DNA of 64,000 bases from Pagrus major (taxonomy: Eukaryota > Chordata > Actinopteri > Spariformes > Sparidae). A program made the position numbers and the translations under genes. The stretch is from the NCBI RefSeq assembly GCF_040436345.1, contig NC_133230.1, forward strand, positions 19,974,197 to 20,038,196. Direction: 5' to 3'. The notes beneath the pieces were generated by a model. That model saw only the letters and a list, made by a program, of their open reading frames with translations. It ran no database searches and had not been told where the DNA came from. This document shows, piece after piece, positions 3,606-52,899 of this stretch. Numbering within the stretch: the first letter of the stretch is position 1; every line of letters begins with the position of its first letter.

Positions 3606-6600
3606 CTATGATCCGCTATAAAGCCACTTTTTTATTATGACTATGGGCCTCATGTCTTGTAGCTGCTTTAGCAAAAGATCAGCACCGTCTGAAAATGTTT
3701 TATCAATGACAATCTTGACATTGTTAGCTGATTTGAGATTCAGGGGATTTCTGAAGTCTACCAGATTTTCACAACCAGTTATTTTGCTTTTCATTGCAGA
3801 TTTCTGTTTGTGAGTTTGTTGTCTTTTGGACGGCAGTTCAGCACTAGATTTGTCATTTAATTTGCGCTTGGAAGTCTGTGTTGACTCTGAGGTTTCCAAG
3901 AACTTAAGAAAAGAGTCCTCAAGTCCTAAAGGCTTGAAAGACCCTGACGTAACCCCGTCGTCACGTTGTTCTTGGGCTGTCGGTGTACCAGGATTTGAGT
4001 TCTCTCTGGAACTGTTAACAGTCGTACGATTCCTAAGGGTCTGCATCCTCTCTGGACAAGCTGGTGTAGGATGTGCAGGTTTTCTGGGACGGCCTCTTTT
4101 AGTCCCCCCTTCTGTCCCAGTGGAAGCTTGAGATTCTGCACTATCGTCATTGGACAGTTTGCTGTCTTCTTGGCCTATTCGATCCACCAGCTCATCTGTT
4201 TTCTCGTCACTGGGCTTTTCGCCTTCTTCTGGCTCGGTCTCCTCAGACGATGAGCTTGACGCCCCCTCTGATTTGTTGGAGTCTTTGAATCTGGCACGCG
4301 GGTACTTTTTGCAGAAAATGAACTGGCTCCTCTGGTCTTCAATGTATCTTTCTGTGAGGCCATGAGTGGTGTAATGCTTAAATATACTTCTCTCAGCCCG
4401 CTCCACTGCATCACAGCCTATTATCATGCATGGGTACTGCAGGGTGGACTTCTTGGTGCACATGGCTGATGCCTCCTCGTGGGATTTTAGTGTAGGCTTT
4501 CCAAAACTAGTCCAGTGTTCAATGGACTTCCCATCTTTCTTTTTAGTGTTTTTCTTCTTCATTTTGAATTTACTTTCCACATTCTCTTTCCCATTAGTAA
4601 CAGCCACGAACAGCCCTACTGATTTAGTCCGTCTTCCGTCACTTGTTTTAGGGTCATAAACGTATTCATGCTTTTTTATCAGGTGACGCAGGAGGTTCGA
4701 TTTTGTAGTGTAAACACGGTCGCATCCATCATACTCACACTTAAAAGTTGGATCAACTGAGCCGCTCTCAGAGATGGCGATTTCCTTGTGGAAATTCTTA
4801 ATGTGCTCGATGTACTTTTCCACGTTGTTGAAGGGGAGCGCGCACTCTGGCCGATCACAGTTGAAAGTCCCTATGGTCATACTGGCCATCATTGCGGTGG
4901 CTTTGTCACGGCTAAACTTGTGAAGTAAGAGGTAATGCTGCACTAACCTTGTGATTCCCATGAACACCCTTGAGCAGTCTTTCACTTGACACCTGACCTC
5001 ATGATCTTTGCTTATACTCTGAATGCTCTCCTGTACAGGTTTAACAGGAGTCTTTTCAGGCTCAGGTTCAGGTTTACTGGGGGGCAGGGCTGCCTGATGC
5101 ATGGCCCTGTAATGAAGGATCAAATTGTGCTGGATGGTGAATGCGGCAGTGCACCCTTCATGAACACAGCGATATGGTCTATATGGACTGTAGGCGTCTG
5201 TTTCACACATTTTGAGACTCAACCTTTTCTGAGATTTGTCTTTCTTATGGAGCTCATCCTTCGTTGGTGTGTTTTTGGAGCTGCTAGGTTTCTCTGGGGA
5301 GGATGAAGCAGATGCAGAAGCGGGGCTGGACTTTGGCTCTTTGACTTTGCTTAATGATGCATCTGACCGTCCTTGCTGCTCTATTGCTTTGCCAACCGGA
5401 CTGAGATTCTCTTGTATTTCTGTTTTTTTATTTCTGGATTTGAGTTTCACATCTGGACTCTTATTTACAACGGCCACTTTAGGCCGCTCTGGGGTTTTAT
5501 CATGATCTGATGGTGCCAACTCACCAAATGACCTATCAGTCAAATAGCTGGGAGGTGATGGTAGTTGTGTAACAGTTGATGCGTCAGGAATGAAGCCCTG
5601 TGTAACTGAATCTCCTGGTGAGGTGATCTGAGGAACCTCTGGATTGTTCTCATTGTCTGTCTGAGGTGCAATTGCAATGTCAAGCGGTTCTTGTTTTATA
5701 GAAGTTAACACCATGGCAGATTGTGTTGTGTGACTGCTGTTGGCATCAGTGGGTGCACGGCTAACAGGCGTATTATCTTTGTTAAGCCTAAATGCACGCC
5801 TGTTTCGAGCACTGATCCTTAGCTTCTGAATCTCTGCCTTTGACAATCGATGCACTTTTTCATAGTGAATTCTCAAACCTGTCGTTCTTGTGAATGTTTT
5901 GGGGCAAATCTGACAAGGATATGGAGACAGTTTGGATGGGGTTCTTTTAAGTTCTTCTATCATCTCATTAGAGTAATCGTGCATTTTAGTCAAGTGTCTG
6001 AATAATGCCTCCTTTGTCATGAATGAGTATTCACAGTCATCCTGGTCACATTTAAAAGGTTTGGGTACCTTTTCAGAGGGCTTGTCATCACTTTTACTCA
6101 GTAATTTACTTTTTTCAATCTCAGGGGCTGGAACACAATGACTGACATTTTGCTCTAACGAAAGAGCGCTCCGCATCTTCTCTTGTGCAGCCTCAATCAA
6201 ATCAAGCCTTTGAAAGGCATGTGAGATTTCCATCAAGTGATCCTCCTGATAAGGTACAGCGAGGGCTGGATTAGCCAACTCTACTGCCTTGTCTTGCTGG
6301 TTTTCAGGGGTAATGGACATTGAGTTTGAAAAGTCCATTATATTTGTATTTTGGGGCTCTTGTTTCAACACCATGGGTGAAGTCAAAGTGGTCAAGCTAC
6401 AAGATTCCTGTGAGAAATCACCATTTGACATGTTGAATACTCCAACGTTATTGTCAGGGACATGGGGGTCATTAAGAAAATCAAGAAAAGATGTTGGCAG
6501 GTCAGCCGTTAGGTCTATTTCATCTACAGGCCTGCACTGTGAGCGTTTCGACAAGTGACCCCCAAGAGACTTGGTGCTTGTGAACTCTCTGAAGCATCTC

Positions 6601-9600
6601 CTGCAGATGACCTTGCCATCTTTAATGATGGCTGGCCATTTGGTTCGCTTGCTCAGCCTGCTGCGTTTTCCTTTCTGCATTTCAGGGTCACTAGCCTTTT
6701 CCTCTACGGCGTCAGCCTCACAGTCAGCATTCGGACAGCCCTCTTCATAAGGAAAGTCTGTCTGAGTGACACTTGGTGGACTGAGCATGCCATCAACAGA
6801 GTTGTCCATAGGCTCATAACCAGGAGTGGACATATTCTCTCTTTTAATGATGTCGTGTGAAGGTTTTAATGCAATCTGGGCTTCTGGGGTCAGACATTTA
6901 ATGGGAATATCAACTGATGAGCCTTGAGTATGACAGGAGTTTTCTCGCTGATCATATGGAGTGTGGTAACCTCCTTCAGGGAGGCTGTCAATTGTTGACA
7001 GACTGTTTCCATTATCCAACTGACTTGTCATACTTGGACTAATTTTTCTCACATCTACAGTATCTCCACTGCCCTCTGGATGCATTAGTCCATACTGATG
7101 CCCTCCATTATGTATTTGCCCTCCGTTGTCAAGCATCAGAGAGCTTGACACATACTGGGACATCAAACTTGAATCTGAAGGAGCGTGTGACGTAGTGGGA
7201 CCATGCATAGCTGCCATCGAATGATCTCTGTCAGATGGGACAGACGCCGTGGTTTGATAAGGGTCTGCCTGCCATTGAGGATAGCTGCGAGATGGGTACT
7301 CATTCATGTTGAAGGCTTCTGGATAGCAGTTATTTACTGGAGGTGAAGACCATGACTGGGACACGTCTGACTGCATCATTCCGCTGGGATTATTTGGGCT
7401 TCCCCATGAAGGGTAGTGTGTGGGGTTCACCATTGGCGTGATAGGCACAGGCTCCATTGATCCAGGATAACACTGGGCAGGTGAGGTCGAACATCCCGTT
7501 TGGTAATCCATTTGCTGCATCCCCTGTTTGTTGCATAGTACTCCAGGCTGATTTGACTGCCTGTTCCACACATTCTGAGACGGACTGGGTGAAGCTGGCC
7601 CACTTGGTGCCTTTTTTGCTGTAATTTTGGCCACTTTGTTATATTTCTTTGCCAATTTCCAGTCTTCAAATATTTCAGGGTGTTGCTTCTTCACATGCCT
7701 AGACAGACTTTTGTTTGTACTGTACGCCCTAGTACAGTCACTATATGGGCAGCAATGCAGATTCTCTTCGTTTCCAGCAGTTACAGCAGGCGTGCTGGAA
7801 GGATATCCTTGCAGCGAAGAGGGAATTTCTGTCTTGATTTGACTTGGAGAAATTATTTGTGTAATCGCTTTGGGAGTTTCATTGCCTTGGACGTTATCAA
7901 GAACCTCTCCCTGTTGACCTGCCACAGGATTTGTGTCACTGGGTACAGGATATACTGGAGGGATTTCACCTTGCCCGACCACATTCGGGGGAGCGTGAGG
8001 AGCCTCAGGTGCTGGTGTCACATCAGCTGGTGCTGGAGTGGGGTTTGTCAGAGGAGTATAGCATTGCTCTGGTTCTTGTATTTCAAGCTCTCCTGCAGAA
8101 TTCAGCATGCTTTCAATCGAGTGTTTCACTCTCACAGGAACAGCATCTTTAGCAACCTCTGGTAATGTGCTTGGTGATGTGTTTGCCTTGGACGCCTCCA
8201 TCATATATGCATCTGTATCAATCATTTCAAGGCTCGGGGTGCTCTCCAATGGTGGTTGTACTTTTGGAGTGACAGGAGGGTTTTGGTTTGTGATGGGCAA
8301 ACTCTTTACTGCATCATTTGTACTATGATTCTCTTGGTGAGACAGGAATTGAGACTGTGAGTAGAATATTTTGCCACAATTATCAGTTTGGCAGGTGTAG
8401 GTAAGGTAATGCTGAGCCTCATGATCATACAACAAGTAGGCCTCACTGAAAACTTGGCCACAGTTAGGGAACATGCACTGGGCCTTAAATTCAGGATGTG
8501 TTTTTCTATGCATGAGAAGCTCAGAATTGGAGTTAAAGTTGGCCTTGCAATCCAACTGTATGCAGATGTATGGTTTGCTGCCACAATGCATCTGCAAATG
8601 ATCATTAAGATGTCTTACGTTAACAAACTGCCGTCTGCAGTACTGACACACCACCTTCTGTTTTTGTATCTCTAAAAACCTCATGGCCTCTTCGTCATCC
8701 TTATGAGATCTGACATGAGCCATGAGGTTTCGGAAAAATTTGAAAGCCTTGGAACAGTTTTTGACGGGACAGAAACAGTCTTGACTTATGTGTGTGTCAG
8801 ATGTAGTTTGTTCTATCTTAACAGGAGAGGCCAATTGTTCGCCAATTTGGGGTTCAATCTTAACGGGACTAATGCTCATCTTGGCAGCAACTTTTGTATT
8901 TTTTGATGGACTTTTAGGCGACTGAGGTGGTTTGGTTACCTTCCTAGCAGCTTTCATTGCAGCTAGTCTCTCCTTGCAAGATTGCTTTACATGTGATGCT
9001 ACATGTGGCTCTAAAACCTCCCTACTTTCAAAACTGTCAGCACAAATAGGACAAAGATACACTCCATCTTTGAAATGCTTCTGTGCGTGGCGAACTATTC
9101 TGTGACCCAGGAACTCCTTGTCGCACAAAACACAATACTGCATGTAGGCTCGCCAATTTCTGAACCGAGCAGACACAAAACCTTGCTCCCGAAGTTTTTT
9201 AGCCTCTCTGTTTTTTTCTCTTTCATCTGTGATTTCATTGAGTTCATTTGTAGTGGTTAACAGAAAATCCTCCAGGTCTCTGTATTCAGGGAGTTTTCCA
9301 AGTGCACTTTCCACCTCCTGTTCGTCTGTGTCATTGAGTGTGTCAATAGATGACACAATAGCTGCCTCCTCGCCCATCAGTGCCAAGCAGTTGCGTTTCA
9401 GTGTTTTCCAGTCCCAGAACTCTGGATCAAAAGGCCACTGTGTCTTCAAGGCCAGCAGTAACTCGCAGCGTAAAGAATTGGGCACTGGTAGGCTTCCGTC
9501 CTCCTCGGGCTTTTGGTCAGGTTCGTTGTACAGTGACTCCACAGCATAATACGAGTCAATGGTAGGCTGGAGGAGGAACTCTGTCAGCTGGCATGCACGC

Positions 9601-12600
9601 TTAACTTCTAGATCAGTTGGCAAGAGGCAGGAAATAGTCTTGCAGATGGTAGACTTGCTATCCTTGTGGTCACTGGTGGTCATTTTCAGAGCTTGAATGC
9701 ACATTTCCACGCACACTGGAAGCCCCACCTCTCCAACCTACAGAAATAAACAAACATAAATGCCAAAGACTTGACTTTAAGATCCCTTTAACAGATGCAG
9801 TATCCTAAGAGTCTGAGTCATTCTTTGTGTGAATGGTTATGAGCAATTGTTCTGCCACAAATCTGTGGACTATTTTTCTTACCTCATTTTGGATTACTTT
9901 GATTAGAAACAGAATATGACAGACGCTTCTACAGAGGAGAGCCATCTCTTTGCTGTGTCCAAGAAATGCATCAGCTGACGACTCTAAACGCATGAGTAAC
10001 TTACTCCAGAACAGTGTGAGTTCCCTGGAAAACATCACAAACACAACTGTTAAAAAAAAACTCACCAATATTTTTATTACTGTTAAATCATTGAATACCC
10101 ATCACATTATAATATGTCTTGCTTTGTCGGAACAGCAGTCCAAAGACCAAAAAACACTCATCTTAAAGCCTTTTCACATCAAGCATAGATTTTTGTCCAA
10201 AAAAATCAGGGCTAAAAATGGTAGACGGCACCACAGATAATTTGCACCGGACCTGGTGTGCCTTGTTGTCATGCAGAAAAATCATACACGGATTTTCTGT
10301 ATGACAACTAGGCACCACATTTTCGCATCCAATGGTGTGAAACTGCTTTCACTATAATATGAGACAAGGAGAAGCAGCTAATTCACACATCTGACAACTT
10401 GGAACCATCAAATATTTGATACGTTGTCTTAAAGAAACGATGTAAATGATAAATCAATTATCAAAGCAGTTTAGAAATAAGTAAAGTGACTGATTGTTGC
10501 AGTTTTATTTGTACACATATTCCGATTACACAAATTAAAGATGTACTTGCACAGTTTTAAGTAGACCGTTGCTGTTGCGGTTATGGCTTGTAGAGAGCAA
10601 ACCATTTATACTCATTCATTCACAGTCGGTCTACAGTCCCTCAAGTATTAAGCTATTAGGAGACATGAACCTTCAAACACACACACACTCAGAGTCAGCA
10701 TCTGCAACACTGCTCAACAGTGACGGTATCTCTGCGAACTTTGTGTTTATTGCAGAGATTGCTTCACCCAATTGCATAATTAATCATTTCCATGACCACT
10801 GTATTCCTGAGGGTAATTTTTCAAGTGTTTTAAGAGTATTTATCTGACACAAACAGCAACACTCACCAGGCACAATAAACATCTCCTTGGAGAAGCTGTC
10901 GCTTGAGAAAGGCAGAGCACAGGGAGAGAGCTCCTTTCTCATCTCCCTCTGACTCAAGGTTGCAGATCATTTCAAGAGCATCTTTACAGTCTATTGACGC
11001 AATCTATTATGGAGAGAGAGATAGAGAGAAATAAAGCCACAGTCAATTTAAATGAAATTAAATAACTATCTGACACACTGTTCGGACCTTTTTATTGTTA
11101 AAAACTCAAATAAGTAATGAGTGACTAATGGGTTTTGCCGTTAGATTCAATTTCAGTTCATTTTCAGTCCGATAGTCTATTTGTTTAATATAAAAACACC
11201 TTCAAACATATTTTTTTTCTATTTCCTGTCGTATTATTGGGTAATTTGCAGGGTTAAAGATGTAAGAACTGTAATAGGTACATTATCAAGTGTTAGATGT
11301 GATGACTTTGTGTGCACTTGGCACTCTGTCATTTCTTACCTCTTCCATTAGCTGCTCCTGACTTTTTGTCATGCAGATGCAAACCAAGTAGGTTTGTTTG
11401 AAGTTTCCTTTTCCTTCATATCCCGGATACTCTGAGCATATCTTTGCAAGGACAGCAGCTTTATCGACATTGTCCACTTTGATTAGGTGCTTTATTCTCA
11501 TGTTCAGAAGTGTGGGACCTTCCAACTCAAGAAACTCGTGAACTAAGGAACAAAAAGGAGAAGACAGAGACAAAAGATAAGAAACTGCATACACACACTG
11601 AATAATTATAATCTCATGCAGTTACAACTATACAAGTTAGGAACAAGTGAGAACTAACCTTGCTCAGTTTGCGGGATTTGATTGGACATGATGCTGCTTA
11701 GTGTGGTGTTGGACCAAACGCCATCCTCCTGTGCCAGAACTGAGAGCAGGCAAAGCTGTGTGCTCCCACTTTCTTGCAAAAGGCTGTGTGCCAACTGCAA
11801 CAGAAGATAAATAAATATGTAGTAAATAAATTACTAAAACCTCAATGTGTCATGCTTTTAATGTTAATAGTCATTTACAGTCAAGAGTCTAAAGTAATTG
11901 TTATAACAATTGTTATGTTACTTGAAGGAATTTGTGTCACCATTCAATGGTTTACATTTCTCAAAAAAGCAGCAATTAACAGAGCATTACCTAAAATGAA
12001 CCTACAGATCCAAACATTTAGCTCATTTATTTTCATTACGTTACAACAATGAGCCGAACCAAATGCATTCTAACAACTAAAACAGCTTTTCTTTGCTTAT
12101 CGCTGCAGAGATAAGCCTCAGAAAAAGTCTCCTAACAGCACGGGGGATACTGACCTTCATGGAGGACTGAAACTCCTCCCATAAGGCACCAGGGACATGC
12201 TGGGGCAGTAAGAGCAGCAGCTCCGCACAGCTCCTGCGAATCCAACACAGTCATTTGTTAAAGCCACATTTAGGTCAAGGATGTGTACACGCTACACAAA
12301 ATAAGGGGAGCATGAAATGTGCTGCTGTGAAGCCAGAGTGGGATTTTTGAATATAGTAAAGACAGAGGTGTAAATCAGAAGCTGATTTAGTCACTGTTGT
12401 TTTTTTATATGTAAAGACAAAAGCTCAGAATAGCTAGATCAGTAACTGTGATCAATAATTAATTAAATTACATCCTTGACAGTGATAACTGTTGCCTCTG
12501 ATTCCCTTCATTTTGTGTATGCACTGCACCTCCGCGTGCAGCTCATCCCAAATATGTCGAAGCTCCCCAAGAGGTAGCCTACATTTCTGTTCTGTATTAC

Positions 12601-20623: not shown

Positions 20624-21264
20624 GGAATTCAGCATCGCTCTGGGTCGATTTACGCCCGCCGCCTCCCTCAGTCTGTGACGACTTCCCGGATTAAGTGAAA
20701 CCTACCAACCTTATCAATGATCTCACTGACTCACTAGCCACTTCGCAACCTTTCCCATAATCCCTTTAAAGCACAAAATGATAATTGCAAACAATGGAAA
20801 GTCAAAACACACTTTAATCATCTTCCATCCTGGCTATGGATGCTGCATTTAATCCCTGATGGGTTTTTGTTACTTAGTAACTGGGTGGTTGTTATCATTT
20901 GTCGTGTCATAGCAATGGAAGGGTCAATAGTTTGTGCTGTTCTTGAGTATTTACTGCAGAAAGAACATCTGTAGGCTGTAAGTGGCCTTAGACTGTTCTT
21001 GAACAATAAGGTGTCATGAAATATCACTTTTTACTGCAATTTCTTCACTCCAGCAGTCACAAACTTTTTGAAACACATATTCAATATGCTTAATATTCTT
21101 CAACATTTAGAATTCAAGACTTTAAGATGTTTTCCATGACATTGAAATGTGTGTCATTTTTGTTTCCTTGTGTGTGTGTTTTATAGGTGTTTTCTGGTCT
21201 TGTGTTGTCATTTGTACGGAAGCCCTAAAGGGCCATGCATTCATACATTTTATTTCCTCTGTTT

Positions 21265-22690
21265 TCCCGTGATAATGAGTTAATTTCATTTGTTTTCTCG
21301 AGATCTCGAGTTATTATCTCGAAATAACAACTGCCATTTTCCCGAGATAACAGGATAATTTTCTCGAGATCTCAAGATAACGAAACTTTGTTTTCCCAAG
21401 ATAACAATATAATTAATTCGAGATCTTGAGAAAACAAAACGATAGTGTAGTATATTAAATCATTGCAGGAAACATCATTCAGTGTAGCAATGTCAGAGGA
21501 GCAGGAGCATATCGATCACTGCGTCACATATCTTTTCAATCAAGGCCTGACACAGGCTGAAATAGCATTATGCCTTGCTATTACAGAGAATATACACATT
21601 AGTGTGGTAATCTAAAAAGGCTTCAGCTGTATCGGCGGCGCAATCTAAGTGAGCCTGATGTCGTCGTTAACTACATAGCTGACCAGCTACGAGGTCCCGG
21701 GCATCTCCATAATCTCAGGCCTATCATATCACAGTCATTATCCCAAGATCTCGAATTAATTATATCGTTATCTTGGGAAAACAAAGTTTTGTTATCTCAA
21801 GATCTCGAGAAAATGATCCCGTTATCTCTGGAAAACGGCAGTTGTTATTTCGAGATAATAACTCGAGATCTGGAATTAATTATATCGTTATCTCGGGAAA
21901 ACAAAGTTTTGTTATCTCGAGATCTCGAGAAAAATGATCCCGTTATCTCGGGAAAACGGCAGTTGTTATTTCGAGATAATAACTCGAGATCTCGAATTAA
22001 TTATATCGTTATCTCGGGAAAACAAAATTTTGTTATCTCGAGAAAAATGATCCCGTTATCTCGGGAAAACGGCAGTTGTTATTTCGAGATAATAACTCGA
22101 GATCTCGAATTAATTATATCGTTATCTCGGGAAAACAAAATTTTGTTATCTCGAGATCTCGAGAAAAATGATCCCGTTATCTCGGGAAAACGGCAGTTGT
22201 TATTTCGAGATAATAACTCGAGATCTCGAATTAATTATATCGTTATCTCGGGAAAACAAAATTTCGTTATCTCGAGATCTCGAGAAAAATGATCCCGTTA
22301 TCTCGGGAAAACGGCAGTTGTTATTTCGAGATAATAACTCGGGATCTCGAATTAATTATATCGTTATCTCTGGAAAACAAAGTTTCGTTATCTCGAGATC
22401 TCGGGAAAACAATGTTTCGTTATCTCGAGATCTCGAGATCTCGAGATCTCGAATTAATTATATCGTTATCTCGGGAAAACAAAGTTTCGTTATCTCAAGA
22501 TCTCGAGAAAAATGATCCCGTTATCTCGGGAAAACAGTAGTTGTTATTTCAAGATAATAACTCGAGATCTCAAATTAATTATATCGTTATCTCTGGAAAA
22601 CAAAGCTTTGTTATCTCGAGATCTCGAGAAAATGATACCGTTATCTTGGGAAAATGGCAGTTGTTATTTTGAGATAATAATATCTGAGTG
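21265..22690. mobile_element. Fold-back DNA transposon with a tandem 121-bp terminal array
   Basis: One inverted unit (about 21300-21440) faces eight direct units on the right. Units are marked by ATTAATTATATCG starting at 21755, 21875, 21996, 22109, 22230, 22351, 22453 and 22574. Spacing is mostly 120-121 bp, with one 113-bp and one 102-bp unit. Each unit is built from short palindromes such as CTCGAGATCTCGAG and from repeated TTATCTCG(G)GAAAAC words. Between the arms lies a decayed transposase segment (21491-21720). Units are near-identical, pointing to recent expansion or homogenisation. The asymmetry of one against eight units resembles Foldback-type elements. The transposon superfamily is uncertain. 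Confidence 0.75.
21491..21720 (+). pseudogene. Transposase N-terminal fragment (DDE integrase-like, possibly IS3EU family)
   Basis: An open segment starts MSEEQEHIDHCVTYLFNQG and continues with GLTQAEIALCLAI, a helix-turn-helix-like stretch. A second segment in another frame contains LQLYRRRNLSEPD and DQLRGPGHLHNLRPI. Together they resemble the N-terminal part of a large family of fish transposase-derived proteins with an integrase-like catalytic domain. The catalytic domain is absent, and the reading frame shifts at about 21608. The fragment marks the element as a deletion derivative of an autonomous DNA transposon. Superfamily naming is from memory and tentative. Confidence 0.5.
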
Positions 22691-28708: not shown

Positions 28709-31700
28709 ATGCTGAGGGCCACCGTGGGCTCGGTGCTGGAGAGAGACGAGGAGCAGGAGGATGAAGCTGAAGAAGAGCTGAGGGATGGAGGGGTGCCTTT
28801 CTACGTGAACAGAGGAGGCCTCCCGGTGGATGAGGAAACTTGGGAGAGGATGTGGCGCCATGTGGCTCGAATACACCCCAATGGTGAAGCTTTTGGGAAG
28901 GAGATCCGGGTTGCCACAGACCTGCCCAAGGTAAAAGTGTATTAAAGGATGAGTTCATCGAAAAATGAAAATGTAGTTATCTTTTAACCCCCATGCCGAT
29001 GGAAAGTCTAGTGAAGTTTCGTAGTCCACAACACATTTCTGGAGCTTCAGAGCTAAGCAACGCTGCGGTGTTTTTCCAAATAACTGAAGTAGATGGGGAC
29101 TTGTTTTAAAACAACTGAAGGAAAACATAAAATGACGCCATACAGCTTGTCTGCTGTAATCCAAGTCTCCGGAAGACCCGAGATCACAAATAGTTTTGAA
29201 GAGACGTTATTTAAAGCTTTAATCTTCAATGTCGTCGCTAACCTAAAAGCATTGGCGCACACCTCCATCTGAAGCGGCGCATGAGCTCCACCGCACCTCG
29301 AGTTTGTAAATAAAGTCTTTTTAAATCAATTTTCAATCTCTGGGCTTTTGGAGACATGGATTATGCCAGGCAAGCTGTATGGAGACATTTTATGTTTAAT
29401 TTTTTGTAGTTTTTTAAAAACAAGTCCCCATCTACTTCAGTTGTTTAGGAGAATGCCGCAACACTGTTTTGCTGTGAAGCTCCAGAAATGTTTATTTGTA
29501 CTACGAAACTTTAGGGTGTGTAGATAATGACTGAATTTTCATTTTTGGGTGAACTTTGCCTTTAAAAGCTGCAGCTGATTATTCATGACACGGGTGAACT
29601 TCACATAATGCCTGTGAAAGTTACACATAGTGGAGAGGCAATTAACACCCATGTGTCGAGGGAAAATGTTGCATCACAGTGTTACTATGCAGTCCCACAT
29701 GACAAGTAAACGATTATTTGTGTTCATCAGTTCTTTGCCCAATTTCACCCCAGTATTAAAACACAGGGCTTGTTTTGGTCACGGTACATTTGAATGCTGC
29801 AGATGAAGAAGAGTGGTGCTTAACACTCATTCCTCATGGGAGCTGTTAAAGAGCAATTAAGATATCTCTTGGCTTTAGCTATACTGGATAGAAAAGTGCA
29901 TAGAGGGCACACAGGACTACATTCTCCAGATGCAATGACTGTTGGGATTGTATAATGGTAATGCAGTTGTTTGGATGCTCTGTCCCACAGATTCCAATAC
30001 CGAGCGTGCCTACATACCAACCTACCACCCCTATCCCACAGCGCCTGGAAGCCATACAGAAGTACATCAGGGATTTGCAGTATCCTTTGACTTAAGTTGG
30101 TACCACAGTGGACTTGAAGCGGCAATTATTTGTCTTGTACAGTTGGAGTGATATATTTAACACACTGATCTTACTCAAATTCATGTAAGATGTAAAGTAG
30201 GGCTGCAACTAACGATTACTTTCACTGTCGATGAATCTGCCAGTTATTTTCTCGTTATTGTTTGGTCTACAGATTGTCTTGTTGTGTCCACATCCCAAAG
30301 ATATTCAGTATACTGCCATAGATGATTAAGTAAACCAGAAAATATTCACAGTTAAGAAGTTTTTTTCCTTAAAAAATGACTCAAATTGAACTGCCAACTC
30401 TTTTGATAGACAACTTTTTGATTTATCGCAGCTCTATTGTCAAAATTAATGCTTACAAACTACCTTTACTAATCCTACTGACCGACTGTTTTGCCACACT
30501 TTGATAAATATGGGCCAAACATCCGAAAGTAGGCCACTCTAGATTCTATATTAAGCTAGATATCCAGTCAGAGCTGAGATTCATCCATAATTAACCGTCA
30601 ACCTATGAATATCACAACGCTTTAAGTGCTCGTCTCTCCACCCCACTGCATTCATCAGAGTATTCTCCCTGTTATTGTATGTCCTTGACTGTCTCCTACA
30701 GGTACAATCACACGGGAACACAGTTTTTTGAAATAAAGAAGAGCCGGCCTCTAACTGCGTAAGCACATTTTATTTTCCCTCATCCTAGACTGATCATCAG
30801 TGATGGACTCGCTGACGCCGGATGTCTGTGACAGCGTTGGTTGATTTCTCGTGGTTTAGCATGTGCTGCTGATGCTTGTGGATCATCTGTTTCTGTGGGC
30901 TCTCTGAGTTGAAATTAATGTCAAGTAGAGGAGGACTGGAAGACAGTTTTCCTGACCTCGCTTTATTAGATTTGGTAGCACAAATTTTATTTCCCTGGCT
31001 CATGGAAAATGTTATTTGTATGGTTAACCAGTGTTACTGTGTTATTCTCTTGTTCAATTGTACTGCACAGGTTGATGGACATTGCTAAAGAGATGACACG
31101 GGAAGCTCTGCCAATTAAATGCCTGGAGGCGGTGATCCTGGGGATGTATCCTTACAGCAGCAGATGCTTTATATGTTTTGATATCTTTGAGTTGTGTTGT
31201 TGTGGCAATGACTGTAGAGATGAACAGCTATTATTCACATGTTTTTCCAAATTTTGCTCAAGACTCTCGAGTTAGATTTCAAATTTCCTTGACCCACCTT
31301 TGCAGTTACCTCACCAACAACATGCCAGGTGTGGAGCGCTTCCCCCTCAGCTTTCAGTCTCAGTTCTCAGGGAACCACTTCCACCATATCGTGCTCGGAG
31401 TCCACAGCGGGGGACGCTTTGGCGCGCTGGGCATCAGCCGGAGGGAGGACCTCATGTTCAAGCCCCTGGAGCTCCGGACACTGATGGACTTGGTGCAAGA
31501 GTTTGACGGAGCCTACAGGGGCTACTGGCACACCCTGCGCAAGGTCAGGATCGGCCAGTACGTGTCGCACGACCCTCACAGCGTGGAGCAGATAGAGTGG
31601 AAACATTCGATACTAGACTTGGACAAGCTGACCAAGGAGGAGCTACGGAAGGAGCTGGAGAGGCACACTCGAGACATGAGGCTAAAGGTACGTTTTCAGG

Positions 31701-33458
31701 CTCATATGTTTATACGTATGCTATAGGTGAGAATTGACCACCTGTTTGATTAATACTCCTACAAATAGAGGCAGCATATCACCAAGGTATGTGCTAACTG
31801 CTGCTAACTGTATTCTTAATGTTAAAAAGTCATTATTTTTCTCATACTGTCCTTTGCTGCAGCACCTCTATTCACCCTCTGTCTGAATGCTCCGTTTAAG
31901 CGCCTGTCTCTTTAAGGCCACCCTCACAAAAAGCCCAGTCTGCTGTGATTGGTCAACTCTCACAGGCCTGAGCAGGCACCTCCCACCACATGAGCTCTAA
32001 AGTGTTTTTTCAACCACGGCTATGCTGTGGGCACAGCTGAGGGCGGCGACTGTATCGCTGTTTAAAGGCACAGTTTTGAATATGAGCTGTAGGTGTTTCT
32101 CTGTGGATTGAGCAGTTTGATACCTTCACAGCAGTTTTACAGCAATTTGACCTGCTTTGTAATCAAAAAGGACATAGAAATCTAGTTTATTGCCAATATG
32201 GGACCTTTAAAGTCTCATTTTCCTGCTGACACAAGCTGATGCAGCTCTTGCAGATCCGAAGACAATAAGGAAAAACAATTTGTCCTCAGCAGAAGGACTG
32301 CCAGTGTGAACTGCTTTATTAGATTTCTGTTGACGTGCTGTGTCTTCATGTGCAGTGACACGGAGCTGACCTGCTATTTGAGGAGCCATTTCTCTCAAAT
32401 GATGCCCTCTCATCACCTCTCATGCTATCATAATGAAGGCAGCCTTGATGCTGAGCTCTGTGTATAATAAAACCAATGTGATGGCTTGACTCTGCTCTGC
32501 GGTGCTTCATGCATCGCTGGCTCAATCCGTCAATAGGTGATCTTTTACAGTGAGCGCTCAGCACAATCACATTAGAAATACAGGGAGATATCATACACTG
32601 ACACTGGGCCTCGGCATGAGTATAGTTTACTCTCCCATGTTTTAAAGGAGACCTATTTTTTTTTCCCTTTAGTATTTTTCACGTTTTTTGTGCATGCTAA
32701 AAGGTCAAATCCAACGGAAGCTACCCCTGAAACCCCTCTTCAGTAGTACATCACACTTGTGCCTAGCAGCTAGTTTGGCAATTGATTTAGCACACCTGCT
32801 CTGTTTTGGTAAGCAGTGCTGGGTCAGGCATGCGTAAGCTGACCAACCAGAGGAGACTGGGGCCTTAAAGAGACAGGCGCTAAAACCAGAGTGTTTCAGA
32901 CAGAGGGGGGGGGGGGTATGAGAAAACTGATGTGTTATTTGAGCATTAAAGCATGTAAACCTGTTCTAGTAGTAACCCAAAATACAATTATGAACCTGAA
33001 AATGAGCATAATATGTCTCCTTTAAAGTGACTTAGATTCTGATGTGTGAATTGTTTTTGCAGATAGGAAAGGCTGCACCGCCCTCTCCCACCAAAGACAG
33101 GAGGAACAGCATGGGTTCACCCCTCAGAGGACCGAGCAGCCCCATACGCAGGATCAGCCGTGTTGAGAGACGGTATGATTAATCATGTGCTCCAGATAAA
33201 TTGGCTCTTCACTAAAAATACGTGCATTAAAGCCACTGACGTGAATTTTCTTTAGTCACGGGGCAATTTTTGGGACTACAGATGTCTCATGATCTAAGGA
33301 GAAGTACTTTTTTGAATTAGTCACAGTTTCCTTCTGATGTGAATACAACTCATTGTCTCGTCTCCTGTTTTGTTTTTTGTTGCAGTCCCTCCGGAGAGAA
33401 GAAGGTTTTGGAGCAAAAATCGACTGCAGACATAAACGGATACCAGATTCGAGTCTGA
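28709..33458 (+). CDS. vash1: Vasohibin-1, tubulin tyrosine carboxypeptidase
   Basis: Vasohibin, with the small partner SVBP, removes the C-terminal tyrosine of alpha-tubulin. VASH1 is also known as an endothelial angiogenesis inhibitor. Seven coding exons are inferred: 28709-28930, 29991-30079, 30702-30758, 31071-31145, 31306-31687, 33063-33172 and 33386-33458, giving 335 residues. The transglutaminase-like protease core shows the catalytic Cys in LPIKCLEAVILG, the His in GNHFHHIVLGV and the Ser region GALGISRRED. The basic tail (PSPTKDRRNSMGSP) ends NGYQIRV. LRDGGVPFYVNRGGLPVD and SRPLT followed by LMDIAKEM are VASH1-like, not VASH2-like. The chosen Met gives an N-terminus about 30 residues shorter than human, so an upstream start or exon cannot be excluded. 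The gene is tail to tail with angel1. Confidence 0.95.
28942..29564. repeat. Complete MITE of the CAAAAATGAAAATTCAG family in vash1 intron 1
   Basis: The left end (AAAGGATGAGTTCATCGAAAA, ATGAAAATGTAG) is the imperfect reverse complement of the right end (GAATTTTCATTTTTGGGTGA, ACTTTGCCTTTAA). The interior is itself a long imperfect palindrome: CATTTCTGGAGCTTC, ACTGAAGTAGATGGGG and GCCATACAGCTTGTC on the left recur inverted on the right. It is about 620 bp and non-coding. Confidence 0.75.
30199..30440 (+). repeat. GGCTGCAACTAA-type MITE in vash1 intron 2
   Basis: It starts AGGGCTGCAACTAACGATTA and ends near ATTTATCGCAGCTCTA. The interior is CAAAGATATTCAGTATACTG and GAAAATATTCACAGTTAAG. It is a nearly full-length, slightly shortened copy; the best comparison in the window is 60133-60453. 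Confidence 0.7.
31755..32215 (+). repeat. Truncated TTAAAGGAGAC-family repeat in vash1 intron 5, first copy
   Basis: ACAAATAGAGGCAGCATATC and GCTAACTGCTGCTAACTG are followed by CTGCAGCACCTCTATTCAC and GCGCCTGTCTCTTTAAGGCC. The copy ends at about GGGACCTTTAAAG. It shares inverted segments with the copy at 32645-33030. The first 70 bp resemble the fragment at 50150-50225. Confidence 0.5.
32645..33030 (-). repeat. TTAAAGGAGAC-family MITE in vash1 intron 5, second copy
   Basis: The ends TTTAAAGGAGACC and CATAATATGTCTCCTTTAAA are inverted repeats. The interior contains GGCCTTAAAGAGACAGGCGC, the reverse complement of a segment in the copy at 31755-32215, and a run of 12 G at 32905-32916. This is a teleost non-autonomous element known from many genomes. 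Confidence 0.65.
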
Positions 33459-37920: not shown

Positions 37921-40900
37921 TTACGGGACGTTCAGTTCCAGCTGGAATTTGGCCAGAAGACTGAGATGGTCGGAGGGGAATATGTCATTGGGAAGGCCCC
38001 TCATTGACCACAAGACATCCTCTGATAGGAGGGAGAGGGAACCAATCAGCTTCAGCCCCTCACTCACAAAGTCACCATCACCTGAAAAAAACAACAAAAC
38101 AAATAAGTTATCTACAGTAGCTGCAACACTGTCGTTCGCGTCATGCCTTCGTACCTTTATCAGCAGCGAGTAAGATGCGTCTTGGGGTGTAGAAGATGTA
38201 GTCGACGGTGGCTCCGGCTTCAGAGTGCAGGGTCGTGACCTCTGGATTGCCAGAGCCTGGAAGAATGTGTTGGTAGACCGACTCCAGGTCTAACCGATGA
38301 GTGATAGTGTGTCTGAACCTGTGACACAAAATATTACTTCATCTCAATTCCACCTCATCCTTCACTCCACATTTTTATATCATGTTGTTTTGCACTTTAT
38401 ACAATTATTTGTGTGAATGTGTGATAGGTGACACAAAATAGCTGAAAGATGATGGCAAGCTGATCTTTTATCATACGTCTGATTTCCCTTTGAGGCATCT
38501 GTGCATAAAAAAAGAAAGATGAACCAGATATTCAGACCAATACAAGAGAACAACTACAAGTGATGTTGTGGTTTTTATATTTGAACACTGTACCTGGTGT
38601 GCTGTCAGTCACGCCTGGAATCAGCTCCAAGTCCAGAGGACGGACACATGCAGCTGGACAGAAGCGCAGCTGCAGCATGAAGTCATGCCCGTACTGAGAC
38701 TTCCCTACAGAAGAAGAACAAATGTATCATAGGAAGTGAGTGAGGAAATGAAACACAAATAACTGACATTCATTCCTTGGATAAAAATGACAAAAATAAC
38801 ATTAGGTACACAGCATGCTACAACTTCTCAACAGTGACCTCGTTTCTGACTCGGGCTCTTCATTTCCTCCTCGACAGTCGTGTACTGGCAGTTGTCAGTG
38901 ATTTCCAGACAGCTGGGCCACAGGGGAGCAAACAGTCTGTGACAGTGGGCTTTGTCTGACAGGTCCTCTTGACCCGATACCTGTTGGAGATGAATGAAAA
39001 CATACATGGTTACAGAGGTAACTCTTGCAAGGTTGGTGGCAGAAGACAAGAAAAAAAGAACCTAGACAGTCATTCGGGAGAAGGTAGTCGGCTTGTTCTG
39101 ATACCAGTATCAGAAATGCCACCAATACAGCCTAAAATGCCAAATTAGGTATCGGTGAGTACACAAGTCTATGAAACGATATGGTACCATGTAGTTTATT
39201 ATCCCTGAAACTGTATGCAAGTTAACAGATTTACAATCAGCCTCACCATCCACGCTGGTAGACCCTGGTAGTAGAGCTCCCCGGTGGTGATCAGCTGGTA
39301 CAGAGGCGTGTAGGGGAGCGAGTTAAAATCCCCACACATTATGAGGTTACAGTGCTCGCCTTTGGCCTTACAGGACTTGACCACTTTGTCAATTTCTGCC
39401 AGCAGTATGGCCAGCTGAGCCAGCTTCACATCACCCCTCCTGGGATTAAAGAGCAGGTGGGTGTTGGCCACGCAGAGGGGCGGGCCCATTGCCTTGACCT
39501 CTGACCCCCGAGTGACCGCTGGCCGAAGCAACACAACAATGCCCACGTTGTGCCGGTCCAGCAGCTCCGTCTCAGGCCTGAAGAACTCCAGCGGGGTGAC
39601 GGATACCTCAGAGAAGCGACTACTGCGATAGCAGGTGGCACAGCCGTCTGTTTTGGTTCCTGTACGGCGCTTGTACACACAGGTGTAGCCTGAAGCGACA
39701 ACATATGGAACAACATTAACACAACATGTAACGTCCCTTTCATAAGATCCTCCAAAATCACTGTTCCACAGAATTATCTCAGATGACCTACCCATCTGAG
39801 ACAGGACTGGACACAGCTGTTCATAGTAGTGGTTCTCCTGAACCTCTTGGAGACACAGAATCTACACACAGGACATAAATGACATATTACTGGAGACTGC
39901 AGATACAAAATGTAGCTGGTTTCAAAAAACAAACAAATAAACAGTACATTTGACTCACATCTGGTGCCCATTTCAGTATTTCCTCCAGCAGCAGGCTGCA
40001 GCGGTAGCTCCAGTCCAGCACCTCCAGGGGGCAGTGTGTGTACAGCTCCTGGTTGGCCTCCAGCAAGTCATCTGCAAGGATGTTGTAGGACATAACAGTG
40101 AAGTCCATCGAGGCCTTTGTGAACGGGATGGGTATCAGGGCAGGCTCTGCTGCAGAGGCACTCTCATCCATGTCCTCCCACACTCTCCACATTACTGGGT
40201 GAATAACAAACACATCCATATGAGCCCATGCAACAGCTGGATATTAAACTACTGTTGAGTTTAAGACAAATTTCACTACAGAGGAATTATTACTACTGTA
40301 AAGAGGTTCAGATCCTCACCTTCAAAGGGCACTGCTGGCTCTATAGGGGGATAATAGCTCATTGCAGGAAATTGCCACGGTGGGCACTGCACTTCCTCTG
40401 CCAGACCAGGTCCTGCAGGAAAGTGCCATCCTGTTTGTGTAACCCTGCTGAGATTAAAGTGGATTTGACTGTCGGAGAGAAGGGAGGTAAATGACAGCTC
40501 AGAGCTTTCCCCACCATGCATCTCATCCGCAGAGATAGCGACATATTCATCCCAGAACTCGGTTAGTTCAGTCGAGGTTTCAGTCATCGACTCTTCCACA
40601 CTTGGTATCTGTATTTGTTGCTGTACTTGACCGCTGGTTTCTTGTATGCTGGGCTCAGCTGGAGTGAGTGACTCTTCTGAGTTTGGTATCCCTTCATTTT
40701 TTAGCACTGGATCGGTGGTAACTTTAGCACTGTCCTCCATTTGCATGCACTCTAATTGTGCCCCAAGTCCTCTCTCTGGATTAGTGTCCTCAGTTGGACA
40801 AATGAGTCCACCCTCTGCGCTTTGCATCATATGCAACATCTCATGGTGATTTGTCATTTCTGCGTCCTCTTCCTTGGGAACTTCTTCTTGGGGTCCATTA

Positions 40901-47212: not shown

Positions 47213-49109
47213 ATGATCGGCGCGCTGTGTTTCTTCGCACTGCTGAGCTCCGCGATGGCCTGGGGGGTATGTATGGCTCGACTGATTCATCTATATTCTT
47301 TGAGGTTGTAGAGGTCAGCTAATCTACTGTAAAGTATGTTCGTGTGACCTCTTTGTTTTTCAGCATGTGGGCCTGTGGAGCGAGGGGAGGAATGAGACAG
47401 GGGGAGGTGGAGGTGGAAGCGGGGACAGGTGCACTTGTGATGCCTTCCTGCCCAGTTCTACCTTTCCTATCAAAGACCTGGTGGAAGTGGAGCAGACAGC
47501 TATGGAGATTTCCCAAAAACTGGAGCTGGAGATGGGCAAGGTAGTCTTAGAAGCATGTGCAATAGATGATGACACATTTCTATGGGGCGCTGGATGTAAA
47601 AAAATGTTTTACTGTAGTTTTTAAACTGATATATTTTCAATGTTTAACTCATTTTCCTCACATTTGAGACATAAATGTTTTTTTTACATTTGGTGCCCCA
47701 TACATTTCAAACAGACAAAACAATCTATAAAATGTTTTTTGTATCTGATTTTTTTCAGCTGGAAGAGTATGAGACCAAGCTGACATCTTACGCAGAAAAG
47801 ATAATAAAGTTGACAGTCGAAATTGAAAAAATGGAGAAGAACCCTGATGATTACAGTGAGGCTGACATAAGTGAGATAAAGGTGGAGATTAAACAAGTGG
47901 AGGCTCTGATTAATGAGCTGCAGCTCTCCATCAAAGTCTCCACCACCGTCTTCGAGTCTCTGCATGTACAGGTAAAGTCCTGCTGATGGCGGTCGCCGCA
48001 TCAATCATACACATAATGCAAATCAAAACCCACGTGTTTCCTCTCAGATCACAGTCATGGTGGAGACCCTGAACAGGCTGGAGAAGACCTACGACAGGAA
48101 TCTGGTCCTGGTGACCCGTCGGGAGTACATCAAGGTGCAGCTGCAGCTAGAGGAGTGTGAGCGACGCCACCAGGAGCTTTTTTACCCCAACATTGGTAAG
48201 CTCATTCACACTGATATCCACATTTAAATCTAAGCTCTCTCTGCAGTCACTTAACAGTTGTTTTCCTCTCTTTCTACAGGGTCTTGTGCACACACAGGTA
48301 TAGTCAAGCTTGGCAAGCCATTTGTAAGCCATCTGAATGCTGATCTTAGTACTGGCAAAATATACGGAGGCTGGGGGAAAGATTCAAAGCCCATTCCTGA
48401 CAGAAAATCTATGTACTGGTACTCTGGGTACACTAGTCCCTCCATTGTTGACATTAAGTTCTACACTAACTACAAGAACCTAATTTTGAGAGAACACTTC
48501 GATCATCGAAGCTTAAGCAGTAGCTGGTATGGCAAAGGGAACAATTTCATCATCCGTGACAACACTCTGTACTATCAGATCAACAATCCATTTGGGTTGG
48601 CCAAACTGAATTTCACCACCTCAAAGCATGAGTCCAGGGTGATTCCCAAGGCTAGCTCCAGATTCTCCTATTCGAACTCACCCTATCAGAACTTTGACTT
48701 TGCCGCTGATGAAACTGGCCTGTGGGTGACCTATGCTTCAGAGGAGTCCAGTGGCCGGATTATCCTGGCTAAAATAGACGAGCCTTCTTTTGGGGTTGAA
48801 GAGGAATGGCAGACTAGCGTCTATAAACCAGGAGTGAGCAATGCTTTCATGGTGTGCGGCGTTCTTTATGTGCTCAGAACAGTTGATATCCACACTGAAG
48901 AGATATTTTACAAGTTTGACACCAAAACCAAACAAGAGAGCTACATCAGTATTCAATTTGAGAGGTTTTGGGAAAAGTATTCCAACCTGGACTACAATCC
49001 CACTGACCAGAAGCTCTACATGTACAATGATGGCTACTATGTGACCTACCATCTGTGGTTTAACCACACAGCTGAAGCCACTGTGGAACCACCACTTGTC
49101 CTGAGCTAA
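47213..49109 (+). CDS. Olfactomedin-4-like secreted glycoprotein, copy 1
   Basis: The product is a secreted protein with a coiled coil and a C-terminal olfactomedin beta-propeller. Five coding exons are inferred: 47213-47266, 47364-47540, 47759-47971, 48048-48195 and 48280-49109, giving about 473 residues. A signal peptide (MIGALCFFALLSSAMAWG) comes first. A Gly-rich stretch and CTCDAFLPSSTFP follow, then a heptad-rich segment (residues about 55-200). The olfactomedin domain runs from about GSCAHTGIVKL to the end. Its marks are [40 protein letters not shown] and the ending [19 protein letters not shown]. Family features suggest extracellular matrix or mucosal secretion. Which OLFM4-like paralogue this is cannot be told here. 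The downstream copy has the same exon plan. AATAAA at 49214-49219 probably ends the mRNA. Confidence 0.9.
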
Positions 49110-51159: not shown

Positions 51160-52899
51160 ATGCTGCCAATTCTGCTGCTGCTTCTACCAGCCCTCAGTCC
51201 TGCTTCGGCCTGGACTGTAAGTGACCCATATTTCCTATTATAATATGCATCGGTCATTTATTTTAATTGACATTAATGGTGTTTTTTTCAGCCAGTGGAG
51301 GACTGGGAGTCGGGCAATGTGACTGCATCAGTGGGTGAGTCAGGTCAGTGCGTTTGTCATGTGTATCTGCCTGACACCATCTTTCCTGCCGACCGGGTTG
51401 AGCACATGCAACAAGTCAGCAAAGATCTGATACTGGAAGTGGAAATTCAAATGAACAAGGTGCATTTTGACCTAATAATAATGAAAGTCTGAACTATTTC
51501 ACAGCTTTTATACATCAACACATAAATTTTTGGTGTGATCATTATGCTGATCATGTGTTTTCACTCTCTCAGATGGAGACCTATGAGGGTAAGTTGGAGG
51601 TCCACCTGAAGGAGCTTTCAGACCTGACTGCGAGAGTGGCCATGCTGGAGACCAGTGCTGACAGTTACATCAAACTGGACTTTGAGTTGCTCAGGATTGA
51701 GCTCAGAGAGTTTGAAGCTCTGGTGACCCAGCTCAAAGACTCCCTCAACTCCTCCTCGCCCATGTTTGACAGCCTGTACACTGAGGTGGAAGAGATGATT
51801 TTCTACTTACAAATAACGTGACTTTCTTCACAGTTAGAATAATAGATTCGACTTTGATTTATGTGTTTATTCCCAGATCCGCAACATGACCCTCATTGTG
51901 AACCAACTGGAGAGTTTTGACAAGAGCAACCTGGAAGTGATCCGCATTGAGTTCACTAAGCTGCAGAGGAAGCTGGAGGAGTGCCAGACAGAGCAGGAGG
52001 TCATCAAGCCAGATATTGGTAAGAAAGCTTGTCAGAAGTTTTTTGGATAATGGTCTAAAAATCAGCTATCGCCAGCCAGTCTCAACATTTTTTTTTTCTG
52101 TCCAGGCAACTGCAATCACACAGGAATCATGAACATCAGCAGACCAATGGTGATCCAAGTGAATGCTGATTTGGCTGCAGGTTATACATATGGAGGCTGG
52201 GGTAAAGACTCCAAACCTCTTCGAGGCTCTGAATCAATGTACTGGTACAGTGCATACAGCGGTGCCAATCTGCGTTACTTCTACTTGTACTCTAACTATG
52301 AAAACCTACTTCGGAGGTCTGCATTCAAGTCCCACCAAATGGCGTCAGGGTGGATCGGGACCGGTAACAATTACATTGTTCACAATAACGCTGTATATTA
52401 CCAGATCAACTCACCTTTCAGTATGGCCAAACTGAACCTGACCACCTCCGGTTATGTCTACAGAGTGATCCCAGCTGCCAGTTCAAGGTTCTCGTACAGT
52501 TACTCAGCGAATCAGAACTTGGACTTTGCAGCTGATGAAAATGGCTTGTGGGTAATGTATGCCTCAGAGGAGAGCAAAGGTAAAATGGTCATTGCTAAAA
52601 TAGATCCAAAATCTTTCGGCATTGAGGACGAGTGGAACACCAATGTGTTCAAACAGTTGGCAGGGAATGCTTTCATGGCCTGTGGAGTCATGTATGTAAC
52701 CAGGTCAGTGGATCTGACCACGGAGGAGATCTACTACGCGTTCGACACAAGGACCAACGAGGAGAAACACCTCAACATCCGCTTTCCCAAGTTCCAGGAG
52801 ACGTACACCAACCTGGACTACAACCCCACTGATCAGAAGCTCTACATGTACAACAACGGCTACTACGTGTCCTACAATGTGAAGTTTAACAAAGAATGA
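51160..52899 (+). CDS. Olfactomedin-4-like secreted glycoprotein, copy 2
   Basis: This is a tandem paralogue of the gene at 47213-49109. Coding exons are 51160-51216, 51292-51459, 51573-51785, 51877-52018 and 52106-52899, giving about 457 residues. The signal peptide is [19 protein letters not shown] cysteine pair ([14 protein letters not shown]) aligns with CTCDAFLPSSTFP of copy 1. The coiled-coil exon is the same length as in copy 1 (213 nt). The olfactomedin domain starts GNCNHTGIM and carries [30 protein letters not shown] and [19 protein letters not shown]. Shared exon lengths and phases show a local duplication. The two proteins differ at many sites, so the duplication is not recent. 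Potential N-glycosylation sites include NVT near the N-terminus and NHT and NLT in the domain. Confidence 0.9.

Follow-up and report, generated by a model that had tools for sequence, protein, structure and literature searches.

The repeat locus described here lies in a 64,000-bp stretch of the Pagrus major genome (C16:19974197-20038196, hereafter the window) and is one copy of a large MITE family with recurrent arm growth, not the single exceptional fold-back element proposed in an earlier sequence-only reading of the same DNA. The copy, at 21215-22680, is a damaged member of this abundant family of elements of about 756 bp. We put the probability at roughly 0.7 that it is a MITE copy of IS3EU/GingerRoot-like type and that amplification of its right arm took place in situ, and slippage or unequal exchange between the joints of that arm would be the most likely mechanism of the array.

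Structure of the Window Copy

A TRF search of the window gave a tandem array with a period of 121 bp at 21746-22409 (score 1181) and a composite tandem repeat at 21746-22680 (score 1360), compared with a best score of 75 away from the element. The motif ATTAATTATATCG was found in eight copies on the plus strand, at steps of 120, 121, 113, 121, 121, 102 and 121 bp, five of the seven being 120-121 bp. The eight direct repeats noticed earlier are therefore real, with the correction that the right arm as assembled consists of seven complete AB units and a truncated one of 102 bp; in one of the complete units, R3, 8 bp are missing at the middle joint. The inverted unit on the far side of the transposase fragment was also confirmed: 21298-21434 is an inverted copy of 21738-21874, 92% complementary to it at a separation of 303 bp. 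The element had been thought to start at 21265; the terminal TACGGAAGCCC places its start at 21215. The parts are as follows.

21209..21214, no strand: CATTTG, presumed left copy of the TSD (6 bp; right copy lost), directly 5' of TACGGAAG; proposed from the 6-bp TSDs of sibling copies.
21215..21310, minus strand: left terminus T, 96 bp, starting with TACGGAAGCCCTAAAGGGCCATG; the same terminus is present at sibling loci.
21311..21430, minus strand: left-arm unit, module B then module A, inverted relative to the array (module parse, unit alignment).
21441..21736, plus strand: MITE core with a transposase N-terminal fragment, ATG at 21490, frame broken here and open in the sibling L025.
21737..21861, plus strand: inner right-arm unit R1, with the original border to the core (unit alignment).
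21862..22337, plus strand: R2-R5, near-identical at 97.5-100% (unit alignment).
22338..22439, plus strand: R6a, truncated, 102 bp, with a 3' end of 8-bp repeats of the joint palindrome (TRF, unit alignment).
22440..22680, plus strand: R6b and R7, the outermost unit R7 being the array end, with no right terminus past 22680 (unit alignment, terminus scan).

The left arm and core are kept, and a right terminus matching the left one was not found anywhere in the window using exact 10-12-mers. The array end at 22680 is the exact start point expected for the outer joint. Because the right terminus is lost, the window copy is probably immobile as it stands.

Each unit had been described as palindromic in itself. 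This does not apply to whole units, which contain palindromes of 12-28 bp. A single strand of one unit folds better than 200 of 200 shuffles (z -3.68), and the corresponding values were -3.64 for the left unit, -1.49 for the terminus and -1.01 for the core control. Both the 8-bp repeats at 22422-22452 and the 8-bp deletion in R3 sit on joints, and R6a includes a 32-bp step for which the joint spacing does not account.

The MITE Family

A search of the 785.9-Mb, 25-contig assembly with the element gave 779 candidate places, the best 40 of which were scored, and 39 non-window loci were extracted with flanks. Eight of the 34 loci L014-L047, with parts extra or missing, were set aside beforehand, and a majority consensus of the remaining 26 copies was 756 bp long. 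The canonical layout is T-B-A-core-A-B-T (about 756 bp), each arm comprising the terminus, module B (66 bp) and module A (54 bp) joined by the palindromic word TCGAGATCTCGA. Each normal arm has three copies of this joint; in the consensus right arm they lie at the core border, in the middle of the unit and at the T border, with spacings of 54 bp (A) and 66 bp (B). The 121-bp unit of the sequence-only reading thus holds as a tandem period, although as a unit it is built from two modules, one of 54 bp and one of 66 bp.

Sibling copies mostly start with TACGGAAGCCC and finish with GGGCTTCCGTA. Among the end pairs of L014-L047, 31 of 31 left ends start with TA and 30 of 31 right ends finish with TA, and the window copy agrees with these TA..TA termini at its left end, 21215, its right end being lost. 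Exact 6-bp TSDs flank 43 of 59 end pairs, and 51 of the 59 have at most one mismatch; in the control, 8 of 3422 mismatched pairs were identical. The 59 pairs come from 72 loci, with only TA-bearing ends taken, partnerless ends dropped and the best right end chosen where several were possible; they include a duplicated pair (L060/L061), a place counted twice (L074/L075) and nested ends (L063, L087).

The family consists of short, non-autonomous elements (about 756 bp, with an N-terminal fragment only) with TIRs and many copies, as is typical of MITEs. Its TIRs are also long and internally repetitive, i.e., foldback-like, with growth being one-sided in the window copy. Over the stretch from T to R1, 4 of 568 non-CpG sites (0.70%) and 14 of 79 CpG sites (17.7%) in this copy depart from the family consensus, the ranges for the 26 other copies being 0.45-1.96% and 4.3-15.6%. 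Its ordinary sites suggest an age similar to that of the siblings, but none of the other 26 copies is as CpG-decayed.

In two expanded copies about 81 kb apart, L060 (C4:5058081) and L061 (C4:4977197), the TSD is identical and the layouts match, so they are probably one insertion within a duplicated segment.

Transposase Fragment and Superfamily

The core encodes an N-terminal transposase fragment, and a protein search with it returned at least 150 matches (the best 150 of 941 candidates). The locus L094 on C9 encodes this N-terminus and, downstream of it, the integrase core PF24764 (E 1.6e-20), a domain that we take to belong with IS3EU. The adjoining L095 has the same terminus T at 97.9% identity. 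Since this longer relative carries an integrase-type transposase, the MITE family appears to be IS3EU/GingerRoot-like. The marks of IS3EU are TA..TA termini and usually 6-bp TSDs, and GingerRoot elements are mostly TA..TA (PMC10045372). The family shares with them the termini and the 6-bp TSDs, and the integrase-type transposase of its longer relative may belong to the same lineage; arm arrays are not among the features given in the available part of that account (PMC10045372).

The longer relative as a whole, with the same terminus and an integrase-core transposase, lies in L094-L097 (C9:683900-690500) and is possibly a fragment or a long element; its right end was found neither in L094 nor in the 4.5 kb that follow. 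Searches of Pfam, NCBIfam and PDB with only the N-terminal fragment returned nothing past curated cut-offs or with a meaningful E-value, and a PDB search with the L094 protein gave a single unrelated match (E 0.068).

It should be noted that the module lengths (54 bp for A, 66 bp for B, 120 bp for AB) are each divisible by three and that the frame of the transposase fragment continues through the right arm. In L025 (1029-1499) it reaches 156 aa, and the longer open frames of L093 (215-970, 251 aa) and L092 (260-1165, 301 aa) consist of the N-terminal fragment and, after it, an 18-residue repeat. These long open frames through arm arrays are likely a by-product. L092 and L093 were considered as autonomous copies because of their long open frames and were discarded, as they are in fact 54-bp arrays read in frame. 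Matches of their array frames to the winged-helix domain DUF2582 (25.9 and 25.5 bits, with a Pfam cut-off of 24.2) were treated as a repeat artefact, because the best stretch covers 14 residues inside the repeats and none passes alone.

Junctions and Arrays Across the Genome

In the window array, the repeating junction reads GATAATAACTCGAGATCTCGA and then ATTAATT; three of the six junctions have single changes. Array junctions are hybrids in which the T-side (outer) joint is joined to the core-side (inner) joint. Junctions of three kinds were searched for genome-wide with at most two mismatches, and the reversed-pattern control gave 0 matches for each.

The AB-AB junction had seven matches, six in the window array and one on C13; its pattern misses junctions with an 8-bp longer joint, as in L009. 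The B-B junction gave 60 matches at at least 29 loci, and the A-A junction 135 matches, at at least 38 loci among the 100 of the 135 that were listed. More than one match was found at 13 of 29 B-B loci and 14 of 38 A-A loci among those listed. Where junctions of the listed matches were at most 500 bp apart, the gap was 66 bp for 21 of 29 B-B cases and 54 bp for 44 of 61 A-A cases.

The module order was also parsed at the window and 74 other loci. An 8-bp internal repeat in the joint made fuzzy joint matching too noisy, and unique anchors were used instead, of which the T anchor still misfires inside units. With these anchors, A-A steps were 53-54 bp in 84 of 94 cases, B-B steps 65-66 bp in 20 of 27, and B-A steps 38 bp in 9 of 11, six of the nine being in the window. 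Without T anchors, A-A steps of 53-54 bp made up 91 of 102, and B-B steps of 65-66 bp 24 of 40, with 120-121 bp in six, 75 bp in four and 129 bp in three. The parsed loci were chosen for likeness to the window element, many of them for expansion, and one C10 array gives many A-A steps; the counts do not estimate how frequent expansion is. In the parse without T anchors, the B-A step (38-47 bp) was present six times in the window and once in each of seven other loci, so single AB duplications exist elsewhere, and among the loci parsed a run of AB was seen only in the window.

The largest array seen, on C10, is about 2.6 kb long and composed mostly of A modules, and arrays of 54 bp with about 12 and about 10 copies are located on C2 and C11. 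The 120-bp array of L055 has a different junction, so the joint does not explain every array. Larger tandem duplications that include core or terminus, with periods of about 831 bp and 407 bp, were noted in L091 (C3:10565000-10568800) and L081 (C1:24749800-24754200) and represent one more type of array built from this element.

The check for an ordinary dispersed 121-bp satellite, by which the sequence-only reading could have failed, found none. The (AB) repeat itself falls short of a satellite, with an array of about 0.94 kb and six of the seven AB-AB junctions in the window (joint-length variants are missed by this count, and collapsed arrays are possible). It is extremely improbable that a pre-existing satellite was captured by the MITE or inserted beside it, a route proposed for the tandem repeat of miDNA4 in the account of that element (PMC12628747): the unit here is the arm of canonical copies, and the junction search gave no free (AB)n array.

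Age of the Array

Relative to the family consensus, a T-to-G change is present in each of the seven full right-arm units and absent from the left arm. Seven units at other loci also have it, so it is not private to the window array. An extra A in R2-R5 and R6b creates the 13-mer GAGAAAAATGATC. A scan that left out units too short, such as R6a, detected it in 5 of the 8 units scored in the window and in 0 of 216 elsewhere. The number of CpG sites lost relative to the consensus was 4 of 43 in R2-R5 and 20 of 44 in R1, R6b, R7 and the left unit (Fisher p 2e-4, a descriptive value, the groups having been picked after viewing the alignment). Compared with the edge units, those in the middle are thus younger or more homogenised; CpG decay reflects methylation as well as age. 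Taken together, the T-to-G change common to the right-arm units, the 13-mer of five units and the CpG retention of the inner units indicate recent local growth or homogenisation, in agreement with the earlier view of a young or homogenised array. The suggestion that the locus was caught in the act of becoming a satellite finds partial support; the array, however, is about 0.94 kb long, has lost the right terminus and shows no sign of spread.

R1, R6b and R7 are each slightly closer to a unit elsewhere than to any array unit. The unit tree is weakly resolved, the units being too short to order, and in it the window units do not form a single group. The outer units may therefore have undergone gene conversion or be of mixed origin.

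R3 and R4 are identical over the columns common to both, as might be expected if near-identical units had been mis-stitched and the unit number, or the array itself, were wrong. Such an assembly artefact seems quite improbable, given that private changes distinguish the units, that the locus lies within a 31-Mb contig and that comparable joint-phased arrays exist at other loci.

Proposed Pathway of Array Growth

The data show the anatomy, the family, the founder change common to the right-arm units, the hybrid nature of the junctions and joint-phased periods at many loci. From here on, we infer the following pathway for the window copy, including its order of events and any role of hairpins. 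The outer joint would pair with the inner joint, through replication slippage or unequal exchange, and the intervening 120 bp (A+B) would be duplicated. A single A insertion would then give the 121-bp founder unit, which may have been copied across the central part of the array in further rounds. Loss of the right terminus would have come later or in the same event, with a break where the outer joint starts. The unit lengths, the junctions, the 8-bp indels at joints and the fact that arms grow independently are all explained by slippage or unequal exchange between joints. The strong folding of the units is compatible with hairpin-assisted slippage, without demonstrating it. Leaving the palindrome aside, the joints are direct repeats of 13-18 bp, and this property may suffice by itself; some arrays can be explained by a second direct repeat, CGTTATCTCGGGAAAAC, whose copies lie 54 bp from each other in the consensus.

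A bolder proposal, which we regard as doubtful, makes the palindromic joint itself an active hot spot: cutting or pairing of the joint, by the transposase or where forks stall, would repeatedly give birth to tandem arrays with units of 54, 66 and 120 bp from one arm. If this were true, dozens of independent array births at different stages in one genome would form a natural series for the beginnings of satellites.

The relation of growth to movement was considered using L014, L019 and L024, which have the same +66 form, with 95-96% identity, 1-3 gap positions and different target sites; their TSDs are exact in L019 and one base off in L014 and L024. Since the same form is found at different target sites, modest arm growth would be compatible with movement, or else it recurs identically. 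Some expanded forms, such as these three, appear to move, and growth before insertion at the window site is accordingly possible.

Growth may also have taken place during transposition itself, by aberrant gap repair with template switching between joints, in which case a long-armed copy was inserted and its right end lost later. The like architecture of L014, L019 and L024 at different target sites and the exact TSDs at the longer-armed L055, L071, L073 and L079 would fit such a history. We nevertheless consider it unlikely, as no second long (AB)n copy was seen (the junction match outside the window is single and has two mismatches), and the lower CpG loss in the inner units than in the flanking arm suggests growth or homogenisation after insertion.

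A different explanation is selection on the transposon: extra arm modules would be added putative transposase-binding sites conferring higher mobility, and the window copy would be a dead, overgrown example. This has been argued for Galileo (PMC3573991) and Tetris (PMC4079207), and modestly expanded forms are present at several sites. It is highly improbable here, however, because 22 of the 26 consensus copies are 736-762 bp long with no extra module; the other four have one. Amplification in place remains our preferred reading of the window array, and the earlier proposal that the arm of a DNA transposon had grown into a tandem array beside the N-terminal fragment of a transposase is retained.

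Comparison with Known Systems

The general route from TIR repeats to a satellite is already described, for Tetris, Galileo, Xstir, miDNA4 and Angel, as far as the available parts of these accounts go. In the Galileo F subfamily of Drosophila mojavensis (P superfamily), direct repeats of about 210 bp in the TIR vary in number, the arms are unequal, and the longest TIRs belong to non-autonomous elements (PMC3573991). Variable direct repeats within the TIR and differing arms are thus common to Galileo and the present family. Galileo differs in its P-superfamily transposase and 7-bp flanks, and its description, in the part available, mentions no palindromic joint that would determine several different unit lengths (PMC3573991). 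Tetris of Drosophila virilis is apparently non-autonomous and foldback-like, and its TIR-220 tandem repeats vary by duplication and fed satellite-like arrays (PMC4079207). As reported there, TIR-220 reached arrays of kb size, whereas the long (AB) array here measures about 0.94 kb and was observed at a single locus.

Xstir and miDNA4 of Xenopus and Angel of zebrafish serve as models in which tandem arrays arise from MITEs via stem-loops or short direct repeats (PMC12628747). In the portion of that work available, the repeats correspond to internal sequence or to the whole element, in contrast to the present case, where one arm is repeated and the terminus lost (PMC12628747). The oyster satellites CgiSat35 and CgiSat47 are annotated as IS3EU, so that satellites of this superfamily are already listed; they come from another organism, and arm or joint structure is not given in the available part of the source (PMC8268682). 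Literature searches for the MITE family, its arrays and the terminus string found no report, Repbase being outside their scope.

The kind of event is therefore known, and the value of the present case is the number of parallel cases with one common joint; what is new is that one palindromic joint is associated with three unit lengths and many parallel arrays in one genome. The beginnings of arrays are hard to see, since mature satellites erase their own origin. Here, the canonical arm as ancestor, the founder unit, the joint that was used and several different outcomes can all be seen in one genome, which makes slippage, unequal exchange and transposition-linked repair testable against each other by comparing individuals or species.

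Other Features of the Window

No Rfam family was detected in the window at gathering scores, and scans of viral and prokaryote contigs for exact motifs gave no match, which is what one expects of eukaryote sequence. Genes in the window, a content that fits a vertebrate, are located at 3606-9737 (a frame scanned in part), 31136-31726, 39199-39861, 48255-49109, 52051-52899 and 58134-59663, and comprise an Rlf-like zinc finger, a vasohibin, a member of the endonuclease/exonuclease/phosphatase family, two olfactomedin-domain genes and a kinase-like segment below the Pfam cut-off.
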